NCBI GenBank assembly: GCA_944325705.1
Contig: CALVBB010000002.1
Location: 1 to 64,000 of the forward strand
Direction of reading: 5' to 3'
Length of the DNA stretch: 64,000 nt
From: Candidatus Gastranaerophilales bacterium
Lineage (GTDB): Bacteria > Cyanobacteriota > Vampirovibrionia > Gastranaerophilales > Gastranaerophilaceae
Shown here: positions 20,986 to 53,216 of the stretch, piece by piece
Layout of the letters: every line of letters begins with the position of its first letter
Numbering within the stretch: position 1 is the first letter of the stretch
The notes under the pieces: generated by a model
Told to the model about the DNA's origin: nothing
Database searches by the model: none
The model's input: the letters and a program-made list of their open reading frames with translations, nothing else
Translations under genes and position numbers: made by a program

Positions 20986-22059
20986 TTATTGGAGATTTTT
21001 CCAGTAATCTTTATCTGTCAGGGCTTTGTAAGTGCACCCGACCCCGTTTTGATTAGAGGTGTTTGTCAGCGAACAGTATTTTGACATATCTGTGTAACTT
21101 GTTCCTTCTGCACCTACCGGAAGAAGCTTGCCTGAATCTGTTAACTGAAATGTAAAAAGATCGTATCCCCATCGATTCGGCCTTTTTTGAACTCCGTTTA
21201 CATCCACGGTTATCAAAATAGGGTATACTGTTGAACCGTCACCCATGGCGCTTTCCAGTAAAAATAAGGTGCCGTCAGTTGTAATAAATTGTCCGTCATC
21301 CAACCAGTTCGGTATAACACTATTTTTTGCATTAAATGTTATATATGGATTTTTCGCATTTTCATTTCCTGTAATTGAACCGTTTTCTATGCAGGAACCT
21401 TTTTCTGTTCCCTCGCCGCAATCCTGTGCATTTTTTATGTATTTTATCAGAAGTTTCTTTAACGGCGAACCCTTTGTTACTCCTTTTACTTTTTGATAAT
21501 TTGCCGGTTTTACAACCTCTCCAGTATCAAGCTGTGCTCTCAAAAGTGCCTGCTGCAGGACTGTGTAATTCTTCTTCAGCCCTGTTTGCAGTTCCTGATG
21601 CTGTGTTTTATTAATAAGTGCAGGCAGTGTCATCGCAGCAACAACCCCGATAATTCCGAGGGTGATTAAGACCTCAGCCAGAGTGAAAGCGGATTTTCGC
21701 AAGGGTGCCGAGTGAGCGATAGCGAACCCAGCCCGTAAGGTGTCGGAAAACCACGCTTTTCCGACATCCCGAATAATCCGGATAGCGGCTCTTTGATAAG
21801 TGAAGGGTGAAGAGTGAGGAGTGAAGTGTTCAACTAATTCCCTACCACCGCGGTATACAAAGGGAACCGCTGAGCCCTGCGAAGCTTGTGCCCTGTATGC
21901 CTTGTGCCGAGAGTGCCGGAGGCGGGAGAGGGGGGGGGCGGTAAAGTTGAACGGTTGACAAGTTGAAGGGTTAAAGAATTTAAGATTAGACATGCCATTC
22001 TGAAACGGTAATCGCTTAGGCTCGCATGAGTTGTCACTGTTCAGAAGCTCTTTATTCAC
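20986..22059 (-). CDS. Prepilin-like protein with unusually long leader and C9 tract (in frame)
   Basis: 357 residues from GTG 22059, or 335 from an internal ATG at 21993 (MSNLKFF), which resembles the starts of the two other tract-bearing pilins. The prepilin signal RKSA-FTLAEVLITLGIIG begins at residue 121, with Glu at +5 and Ala rather than Gly at -1. The mature part has the family marks: INKTQHQELQTGLKKNYT helix, ITVDVNGVQKRPNRWGYDLF and a C-terminal Cys pair (YCSLT...GVGC). The leader of 100-124 residues is encoded by repeat-like DNA: a C9 run (21930-21938), GTGAAGAGTGA-type repeats and a perfect hairpin. The frame is open, so this gene would be ON. Confidence 0.75.
   Translation of the reverse strand: MNKELLNSDNSCEPKRLPFQNGMSNLKFFNPSTCQPFNFTAPPLSRLRHSRHKAYRAQASQGSAVPFVYRGGRELVEHFTPHSSPFTYQRAAIRIIRDVGKAWFSDTLRAGFAIAHSAPLRKSAFTLAEVLITLGIIGVVAAMTLPALINKTQHQELQTGLKKNYTVLQQALLRAQLDTGEVVKPANYQKVKGVTKGSPLKKLLIKYIKNAQDCGEGTEKGSCIENGSITGNENAKNPYITFNAKNSVIPNWLDDGQFITTDGTLFLLESAMGDGSTVYPILITVDVNGVQKRPNRWGYDLFTFQLTDSGKLLPVGAEGTSYTDMSKYCSLTNTSNQNGVGCTYKALTDKDYWKNLQ
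21741..21766. repeat. Perfect hairpin inside the prepilin leader
   Basis: TGTCGGAAAA and TTTTCCGACA are a perfect 10-bp inverted repeat around a 6-nt loop, within the leader-coding part of the prepilin at 20986-22059. It resembles an intergenic palindrome that has become coding. Confidence 0.75.
21797..21828. repeat. Degenerate GTGAAGAGTGA-type tandem repeat
   Basis: About three imperfect copies of (A)GTGARGRGTGA. A similar run (GTGAAGAGTGATGTGTGACG) occurs at 56247-56266 in an intergenic spacer, so this is a dispersed low-complexity repeat. Here it is translated within the prepilin leader. Confidence 0.55.
21930..21938 (-). repeat. Homopolymer G9/C9 tract in prepilin leader
   Basis: Nine G on the plus strand, nine C in the coding strand, within the leader of the prepilin at 20986-22059. 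Loss or gain of one base would uncouple the start from the pilin. In the present sequence the frame is open. Confidence 0.8.
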
Positions 22060-26423: not shown

Positions 26424-26452
26424 TTGAAAATTTTTATAAAATAGTTTATAAT
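26424..26452 (+). promoter_or_regulatory. Sigma-70 promoter of the tract-bearing prepilin
   Basis: TTGAAA (26424-26429), 17-nt spacer, TATAAT (26447-26452). The other poly-G prepilin has the same pair with the same spacing at 52298-52326; the first 12 bases (TTGAAAATTTTT) are identical. Confidence 0.8.
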
Positions 26453-26490
26453 GTAAATGTAAATAGCAAAGTTTAAAAGGAGATTAAACA

Positions 26491-27460
26491 ATGGAAAATA
26501 CAGTAAAATCAAGGTTTTTCGGGGGGGGGGGCAAGTAGTTTAAGCTCCTTAACCGGCACAGAGCAAGGGATACAGGCAGCCGAGAGAGGCAAAGCCTTTA
26601 GTTTGTGTACATTTTTGCAGCGTCTGATTAAGAGAAAATCTCTCCTGCCGCCCTGTCTTGGATTTGCTCTACGCTCGGAAAGTTTCGCTTATGAACCTAC
26701 GGTTCAACACCGCTCAATTTCCTCGCAATCCGGATTTGTTCGCTTCGCTCACACGGCGCCCTGCCGAAAATCCGCTTTTACATTGGCAGAAGTTCTTATC
26801 ACTCTCGGGATTATCGGCGTGGTTGCGGCGATGACACTGCCGGCGCTTGTCGGAAATTATCGTAAAAAGCAGGTGGAAGTTAAACTTAAACGCTTCTATA
26901 GTGTATTTAATAATGCTTTAATTCGTTCGGAAGCAGACAACGAACAGATGCAGTTCTGGGAATGGCCTGAGAACTCCTATAAAGATGAGGATGGTGAGAT
27001 TATTCAAACCGGTTCAATTTCGGATTATGAGTGGTTTGAAAAATATTTGAAGCCTTATTTTAATATAAAAGATGTTAATCAGAGTTTTCACCTTTATTGT
27101 GTTTGGTATGATGGTTTTGCTATAAAGATGACAGATGGAACAGGGGTTGCATGCGGTATTTATGAGGGTCGCTCTTTTGGGGATAAAACCTATCCGTTTG
27201 TCTGCATGTTTTTTCCGGAATCAAAGAATATTGATAATGTTAGAGATTATAACACAAAGTCACAAAGTTTAATTTCAGGAAAAGACTATTTTATATTTCA
27301 ATTATTTAATGGAATAAACGGGAAAAAAGGCTTACAGGCTATAGATAGTGATGAATGTACCGGCGAAAAGGGTTTTAAAAACCTTCCTTCTATAGGCTGT
27401 GTAAAGAAAATTATTGAAAATAACTGGGAAATTCCGGACGATTATCCGGTAAAATTTTAG
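26491..27460 (+). CDS. Poly-G phase-variable prepilin (OFF in this sequence)
   Basis: ATG 26491 has a strong AAAAGGAG 8 nt upstream and the promoter described above. With the 11 G present the frame reads MENTVKSRFFGGGGK and stops. With 10 G (or 13) it runs without a stop into the pilin and to 27460, giving 322 residues. The pilin part has CRKSA-FTLAEVLITLGIIG (F at 26777, leader 95 residues, Ala at -1, Glu at +5), the KKQVEVKLKRFYSVFNN helix and a C-terminal Cys pair (DECTGEKG...IGC). A TTG at 26603 could start a shorter product but lacks a ribosome site. The role as a secreted minor pilin is inferred from the family. Confidence 0.78.
26521..26531 (+). repeat. G11 tract, switch of prepilin at 26491
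   Basis: Eleven G directly after TTTTTC and before CAAGTAGTTTAAGCTCC. The tract lies in codons 11-14 of the leader. One G fewer joins start and pilin. Confidence 0.9.
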
Positions 27461-50958: not shown

Positions 50959-51928
50959 ATGTTTAAAGTTATTAGCCAAAATTTTGCGTATAAAAAAGTT
51001 TCAATCTTTGGTATAAAGCTTTCGTTTATAACACCGGAATACAAAGAATTAAAAAAACTTTTCAGGAAGGTAATTGTAAGGGATTTTGGAAATAATAACA
51101 GGGTTATTTTGACCGGTAGTCCTTGTGTAGAGCCGATTTCGGGGGGGGGGGGACGCTGACTCTCTAAGGATTTCGTTTTTCGGGGATAACAATACGATTG
51201 TCATAGCACGCTCTGCAAAACTTTCCGGCCTGATTAATATATTCGGTGAGAATAATAGTATTTCATTTAGCCAGTTATCTCAATTTTCTTCAGGCATTTA
51301 TATCGGTAAAAAGGATGATTTAGTTAGAAGTAGTAATTTATGTTTTGGTGAGGGATGTAAGATTTTAAATTCTAATGTAGATATAGTATCAGGTTTTAAT
51401 CAAGTATTAAATATAGGAAATAATTCTCAATTAAATTCAGTTTATATTGAACAGTCAGGTAAATCAGAAGTCCATATCGGGAATAATGTATCTTTTTTTA
51501 TTAAAAGTCAAATTAGAATTGGATGGCAATCAGAGCTAAATATTGGAGATAACACTACAATTAATGAAATATTTATAAATACGGCAATGAATTCTAAAAT
51601 AAATATAGGTGAAGATTGTATGTTTTCCTGGAAAGTGGTTTTATTCCCCGATGATTGTCATCCTATTATGGATAAAGAAACAGGTAAGCTTATTAATTCT
51701 CATAATAACAATAATATCCATATTGGAAAGCACTGCTGGATCGGGTATGGAGTTACATTGCTCAAAAATGTAACTATTCCTGATAATTCTATTGTCGGAA
51801 TGAATTCTTTTGTAATTAATAAACAGTTTGATGAGCAGAATGTTATAATTGCCGGTTCTCCCGCTAAAGTTATTAAGCGTAATATCGACTGGGATAGGGA
51901 TTACGCAAGTTTAGGCAGAAAAACTTAA
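50959..51928 (+). CDS. Poly-G phase-variable left-handed beta-helix acyltransferase (OFF)
   Basis: From ATG 50959 the frame ends at 51159 after GGGGR because of a G12 tract. With 11 G (or 14) it stays open to 51928, giving 322 residues. The downstream part is a clear hexapeptide-repeat acyltransferase: LNIGDNTTIN, INIGEDCMFSW, IHIGKHCWIGYGVTLLKNV and NVIIAGSPAKVIKRNIDWDRD, like O-acetyltransferases of surface polysaccharides (WbbJ/Vat type). The N-terminal part before the tract already has strand-like segments (RDFGNNNRVILTGS). Calling 51587-51928 as an independent gene would remove half the helix and leave no ribosome site. Confidence 0.8.
51141..51152 (+). repeat. G12 tract, switch of the acyltransferase
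   Basis: Twelve G after AGAGCCGATTTC and before ACGCTGACTCTCTAAG. The 5' flank is identical over 12 nt to that of the tract at 52381. One G fewer opens the frame. Confidence 0.92.
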
Positions 51929-52350: not shown

Positions 52351-53216
52351 ATGTTGAAATTCACTAATAGAGCCGATTTCGGGGGGGGGGGCAACGTACT
52401 CTAAGCTCTCTTTCGTTGTTTCGGGCAGGTAGTTCAGATTATTTTTTAGGAAGTATTAATATTGCACGCTGCGGGTTTACTCTTGCGGAGGTGCTGATTA
52501 CTCTTGGAATTATAGGTATTGTTGCAGCTCTTACAATGCCGACCTTAATTCAAAAAAATCAGGATAAGGAACTTATTTCAAGAACAAAGGCGGTTTATTC
52601 GACAATACAGAACGCTGTATTGAAATCCCAATCTGACTATGGAGTTATAGGAGATAATTCCCTGCTGTTTAGCCCGAATAATACAAGTAGCCAGACAGCA
52701 GAGGCTTTTGCTAAATATTTCAACGGAGCACGGGTTTGTAAATCTAAAACTGATAAAGGCTGCAGTACTTATTACTACAAAGTTAAATTCGGCTCATTAC
52801 GTTTATCTTCTGATAATAGCGGTGCTGCAGATGAGATGGGCTCATGGCCTAAAATTTTATTAAGTAACGGGGCTATTCTTGCAATACTCCAGTATAATAA
52901 TCCGGATTGTTATGCTCCAACAACAATAAATGTTACCGATGAATACGGCAGACCTCTAAAAAATCCGGACGGTACAAACCAGACTAAAATCTGGCATAAT
53001 AGACGCTGTGCAGTCGTTCGTTTTGATGTAAACGGCATTAAAAATCCAAATCAGTTAGGCAGAGATGTTTATTCAGTAGCTGTTATGAAAGATGGCAAGG
53101 TAAAAGCTGATGATACTTCTGTTACATTCGGCGGAAAGAGTCTTAACAATATTTTGACAGGTAAAGAAGAACTCCAGTACACCAATTACTCCTCCGGTCA
53201 GAAATATGACTTTTAA
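52351..53216 (+). CDS. Poly-G phase-variable prepilin, second locus (OFF)
   Basis: ATG 52351 has AAAGGAG 9 nt upstream; an ATG at 52342 is in frame but too close to it. With the 11 G present the frame ends at MLKFTNRADFGGGGNVL. With 12 or 9 G it stays open to 53216, 288 or 287 residues. The prepilin signal is RCG-FTLAEVLITLGIIG (F at 52476; leader 42 residues in the 12-G state; Gly at -1, Glu at +5). The mature part has KELISRTKAVYSTIQNAVLKS and FDVNGIKNPNQLGRDVYSV. It lacks the terminal Cys pair and ends in YTNYSSGQKYDF. A TTG at 52416 would be an alternative start without a ribosome site. Confidence 0.8.
52381..52391 (+). repeat. G11 tract, switch of prepilin at 52351
   Basis: Eleven G after AGAGCCGATTTC and before CAACGTACTCTAAGCTC. 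Adding one G (or losing two) joins start and pilin. Confidence 0.92.

Follow-up and report, generated by a model that had tools for sequence, protein, structure and literature searches.

The window, the whole 64,000-nucleotide stretch that was analysed, belongs to contig CALVBB010000002.1 of a Candidatus Gastranaerophilales genome assembly (GCA_944325705.1). The locus examined here occupies positions 26424-27460 on its forward strand (Table 1). A promoter-like site is followed by a Shine-Dalgarno (SD) sequence, an ATG and a G11 tract, with 30 nt separating the tract from the start codon. This is a homopolymer of contingency-locus length (a G/C tract of at least 8-9 in a reading frame near its start). 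Removal of one G yields 322 open codons containing a type IV prepilin motif whose phenylalanine is residue 96, leaving a 95-residue leader before the SA-F cleavage site. A change of one G thus decides between this 322 aa product and a peptide of 15 or 17 codons, and paralogous loci respond to a gain or loss of one G in the same manner.

Our frame counts agree with the original prediction on the out-of-frame G11, the product at one G fewer and the leader length, and a ribosome site and ATG do precede the tract. Its "perfect" promoter proved near-perfect, and the site is common to just a few other cassette loci in an alignment of tract loci. Two other starts were considered and rejected. A TTG at 26603 lacks an SD sequence, and SD-equipped starts 3' of the tract occur in just 10 of 123 loci of the genus. 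A start upstream in the ON frame at the assembled length would meet a stop before the tract, as read from the class A/B cassette sequences.

Table 1. Features of the prepilin locus and of a second cassette in the window.
Feature	Position	Strand	Remarks
Promoter-like site TTGAAA-17-TATAAT	26424..26452	+	-35 5/6, -10 6/6 (11/12)
Dispersed cassette module (SD, ATG, 10-codon leader, G-tract, post-tract spacer)	26476..26649	+	~174 bp, ~28 copies in genome
Shine-Dalgarno AAGGAG	26477..26482	+	conserved in cassettes
ATG and ten-codon leader start MENTVKSRFF	26491..26520	+	
G11 tract	26521..26531	+	in frame at G10 or G13
Prepilin in ON frame (leader rest, N_methyl motif, DUF6613 domain, stop)	26534..27460	+	
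TAG ending the assembled (G11) frame	26536..26538	+	after 15 codons
TAA closing the third frame	26541..26543	+	after 17 codons; frame with one extra G
Second dispersed repeat in leader/motif region	26738..26799	+	also in other prepilins
Predicted mature pilin FTLAEV...	26777..27457	+	227 aa; residues 3-55 modelled as a long N-terminal helix
Second cassette (ATG 52351, G11 52381-52391)	52351..52391	+	before another prepilin; in frame with one more G

Identification of the product as a prepilin rests on several observations. In a profile scan of the genome the N_methyl family matched at 26765-26836 above its cut-off (E 3.7e-6), and the globular part of the ON-frame product corresponds to DUF6613 (E 3.2e-6). 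The glutamate at position 5 of the FTLAEV motif is invariant in 42 sequences. A structure model of the predicted mature pilin has a mainly beta domain behind its N-terminal helix (mean pLDDT 85.9), and Foldseek returned no PDB match to it at E <= 0.001. The genome contains about 130 prepilin motifs and encodes a prepilin peptidase (Peptidase_A24, C23:17801-18190, above cut-off).

The length of the leader is unusual. Prepilin leaders commonly have about 6-30 aa, a range that is typical rather than strictly defining. Those before the prepilin motif across the genus (16-177 residues, median 43) exceed known prepilin leaders in length, and the 95 residues of the window locus do not conform to the short leader of type IV prepilins. 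Because many leaders in genome G002 have about 23 residues, a normal prepilin leader made of cassette plus motif, the sequences suggest that the compact leader is the original form and that the long window leader was extended by repeats. An ortholog of the window pilin in a Candidatus Gastranaerophilales MAG of the same genus (G010, contig C1 / L163, CALVBS010000001.1) is about 70% identical and has a short leader, MKKA, with no G tract. Comparison of the two pilins gave a dN of 0.23 against a dS of 3.2 (the latter saturated), which argues for purifying selection on the window pilin, even though it is unreadable at the assembled tract length. Elsewhere in the window, a prepilin at 20986-22059 (-) carries a long N-terminal extension of dispersed repeats without the RBS-ATG cassette, and has a short homopolymer, C9 on the gene strand, near 21930.

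The window locus is one copy of a much larger set. The genome holds 74 tracts of G8 or longer, against about 6 expected, and 40 of these lie at most 700 nt upstream of a same-strand prepilin motif, where 1.7 would be expected (P ~4e-45). When the window locus was aligned to the other tract loci, the SD-ATG-leader-Gn module was found dispersed at about 28 of them; nearly all alignments begin at 26475-26477, at the Shine-Dalgarno sequence, and many end near 26649, others earlier. Only 2-3 loci of this genome are in frame (ON), and several cassette copies have broken downstream frames. A length switch upstream of the cleavage site is supported by the frame logic, the shared cassette, the length differences between copies and the purifying selection. 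The original description as a single gene needs changing, since the locus is one of about 40 of its kind before prepilins in the genome.

Further tracts in the genome lie at other kinds of gene. In the window, a G12 at 51141-51152 (+) lies in or before a hexapeptide-repeat transferase (51131-51925) and shares its upstream flank, AGAGCCGATTTC, with the prepilin cassette at 52381; in the frame of an ATG at 50960, a stop precedes this tract. A cassette or G11 tract is fused in frame to a family 17 glycosyltransferase at L018:1125-2090 (-), and another is fused out of frame to a GT-D-like protein at L062:8534-9394 (+), so the switch extends beyond prepilins. At L010, L011, L012 and L049, more G10-G12 tracts lie in or beside large genes (an alpha-amylase domain, an AlgX-like acetyltransferase, a LysM protein and a 1282-aa open frame, the last with no Pfam match). 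In the G000 assembly, a cassette or G tract lies at or close to the start or end of several contigs (C1:67, C5:1, C21:52 and C33:210, and likewise the ends of C6, C13, C19 and C25); assemblies therefore break there.

As judged from its sequence pattern, the SD-ATG-leader-Gn cassette is a recurrent element throughout the family. The pattern SD-ATG-N-G8 gave 20-84 matches in most of the related genomes searched and, when reversed, 0-2; one genome of 1.7 Mb has as many as 84 switch-bearing loci. Such G runs are almost absent from genomes of other families of the order. The cassette DNA pattern found no matches in a scan of GTDB genome contigs or in two viral-contig scans, and the window locus had none in a phage collection. 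Three pairs of pilin bodies that are 81-90% identical (L128/L134, L211/L264 and L193/L196) carry different cassettes, and these suggest that cassettes have been exchanged between pilin genes.

Many cassettes in G003 and G012 are not fused to a prepilin. In this form (L143, L149, L155, L067 and L087), SD, ATG, leader, G11 and stop are followed by CCTCC, a hairpin and then a prepilin with a normal SD-ATG of its own. The CCTCC could pair with the SD sequence, the hairpin is terminator-like (GCCGTG..CACGG-T5), and the spacer lengths are not divisible by three. From these elements, the unfused form looks more like an attenuator-type leader than part of a pilin, and its frequency in the two genomes counts against the switch reading favoured below.

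Phase was typed in cassettes fused in open frame to a prepilin motif (n=191 overall, 123 in the genus). Overall, 116 need one G fewer, 22 are in frame and 53 need one more. The bias is sharper in the genus, with 97, 8 and 18 in the same order, although the chi-square p of ~7e-26 overstates the independent evidence because cassette copies share ancestry. Two genomes, G018 and G019, have the opposite offset, with 29 of 36 cassettes needing +1. Assembled tracts are mostly G10, G11 and G12, respectively, at loci whose flanks set the ON length to G9/G12, G10 and G11; since the ON-length classes 0, 1 and 2 mod 3 sit mostly at these three lengths, the ON+1 offset tracks the flanks and not absolute length. 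The copies do not behave as a coin toss would: nearly all are off by the same one G.

The occupied frame is also closed in a particular way. At 92% of the -1 loci of the genus a stop falls within 4 codons past the tract in the occupied frame, whereas the alternative out-of-frame reading has one at 46%. G018 and G019 likewise guard the frame that they occupy (92% vs 33%). It is the guard stop itself that appears to be kept, because TAA, TAG and TGA are all in use; loci differ in how far the stop lies from the tract and in which codon precedes it. Between tract and motif, the ON frame is open across 6-163 codons in more than 100 loci.

Evidence on whether the tracts vary in length is mixed. In G015, tract length differs in 25 of 40 pairs whose upstream flanks of 34-37 nt are identical, and the phases of its 75 typed copies are distributed 47:15:13. 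Two orthologs with pilin bodies 95% identical (L004/L150) have G12 and G11 and hence different phases, and some other ortholog pairs keep one length (L031/L089, both G11). Tracts are very uniform in some genomes, most copies being G11 in G003 and G012 and G10 in G018, a uniformity that exceeds expectation for a freely mutating tract. Published poly-G insertion and deletion rates from Campylobacter jejuni (PMC8224891) predict a G11:G12 ratio of 15:1 with ON excluded, and 65:4 was observed. A full simulation with the same rates placed the OFF population at G7-G9 and not at G11; as these rates drive tracts to that range, some force must keep the tracts long. The model thus accounts for the ratio within the OFF pair but leaves the preference for long tracts unexplained, and it fails for G018.

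Taken together, we favour slipped-strand switching as the likely explanation: a large repertoire of type IV prepilins would vary in phase and be OFF by default. A bacterial family would have placed the cassette before dozens of prepilin genes, the window locus being one copy. Translation would begin at the cassette ATG; at G11 ribosomes would terminate after 15 codons, and at G10 they would continue into the prepilin, from which the prepilin peptidase would then remove the leader together with its glycine run. A single-G deletion would thereby switch one pilin ON in one cell lineage, and any given pilus protein is probably made only by rare cells with a changed run length. We favour slippage during DNA replication, with an ON state that is costly or selected against and so absent from most cells. 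This scheme supposes high-frequency tract mutation in the population, selection or cost that keeps ON rare, a deletion bias of long G tracts that heaps copies at ON+1, and pilins that are assembled and varied at the surface. The idea that a tract upstream of the SA-F site switches expression only is in keeping with the frame logic and the shared cassette, and removal of the 95-residue leader is its putative step.

The uniform phase within each genome would also be expected if G11 were a fixed functional length, with RNA polymerase slippage or ribosomal frameshifting supplying a constant low output and the nearby stop forming part of the signal. Confinement of the conserved stop, in all three codon forms, to the occupied OFF frame suits this reading, as do compensating edge changes that preserve phase, and the tract uniformity of several genomes keeps it alive. 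We nevertheless consider it unlikely. Programmed frameshifting implies a fixed direction and a conserved shift signal, whereas here the direction differs by genus (-1 in the window genus, +1 in G018 and G019), the spacing and sequence context of the stop vary among loci, and copies with identical flanks differ in length. The G8 tracts found in G019 are, moreover, short for polymerase slippage, and folded leaders contained no strong stimulator (z ~-0.8 to -2). Two specific mechanisms were examined and set aside: ribosomes shifting by a fixed +1 where they meet the guard stop does not accord with its variable distance and preceding codon, and RNA structure as the switch found no support in the folded leaders.

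Slipped-strand switching must also be weighed against two less probable readings. Most copies might be non-expressed donors or decaying genes, with only the few in-frame loci at work and the donors recombining through the shared cassette. The small number of ON loci, the apparent shuffling of cassettes and pilin bodies among loci and the broken downstream frames of several copies are consistent with such a silent store; yet the tract-to-motif frame is open in more than 100 loci, the dN of the window pilin is well below its dS, and the SD, ATG and leader are conserved though donors would not need them. Taken together, these points make the donor reading improbable. We attach the lowest probability of all to a technical artefact in which assembled tracts systematically carry one surplus G and the genes are really in frame. 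G-tracts are difficult for Illumina sequencing, their assembled lengths can be wrong and a reference may differ from the real length distribution (PMC9187656). Against this, the same +1 offset is seen at G10, G11 and G12 loci, and it is reversed in G018 and G019. An artefact is also unable to produce a guard stop that follows the occupied OFF frame, whichever of the two that is.

Several known systems resemble this one. In the Neisseria opa genes, CTCTT repeats lie within a removable leader and leave the mature protein unchanged, and these genes form a multigene family, like the system described here; they differ in having a pentamer repeat, an outer membrane protein as product and some 4-12 loci. 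To our knowledge, no uniform OFF phase has been described for opa. The tract of Neisseria pilC sits in a Sec signal peptide, and the tracts of Campylobacter jejuni lie in a variety of surface and modification genes that are not known to share a start cassette. The likeness to pilC is a homopolymer (poly-G/C) inside the coding frame of a gene for type IV pili (PMC5953494), but PilC is an accessory or tip protein with two copies and not a structural prepilin. That to C. jejuni lies in G7-G13 tracts within reading frames, tens per genome, with a length-dependent insertion/deletion bias (PMC8224891, PMC4965091).

The closest tested precedent is the sortase-pilus system of Bifidobacterium breve (bbr_0113 and bbr_1889), in which a G-tract links a start ORF to the ORF of the pilin. 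Pili are not seen in the parent strain, putting the ORFs in frame produced them, and a tract length apparently permitting pili was enriched in mice (PMC9187656). Both systems occur in gut commensals and rely on a tract of about 10-12 G between the start and the pilin. The B. breve loci, however, number one or two and encode sortase-dependent LPXTG pili, whereas here dozens of type IV prepilins share a cassette and a uniform phase. The window locus encodes a DUF6613 type IV prepilin in place of the LPXTG pilin and clustered sortase that mark sortase pili; its switch is similar in working, without being a member of that group.

Poly-G phase variation as such is already known and established in pathogens. 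What is new is how large the prepilin repertoire is, together with the start cassette that its members share and their uniform OFF phase, and our literature search found no paper on phase variation in these bacteria. Gene callers are expected to miss or truncate most of these pilins in public genomes, as their frame is broken in the assemblies. We give roughly even odds to the widest form of the proposal, a surface system spanning the Gastranaerophilaceae of the gut. A mobile start cassette (SD-ATG-leader-Gn-guard stop), set before dozens of type IV prepilins per genome, would hold the repertoire uniformly OFF and one pilin at a time would be sampled per lineage through single-G deletions or, if the tract is fixed, a new class of G-run reframing would set low expression of the whole repertoire. 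In these uncultured, non-photosynthetic gut relatives of the cyanobacteria, poly-G switching would govern an exceptionally large set of structural prepilins, and the uniform OFF phase predicts rare, perhaps mutually exclusive, pilin expression.
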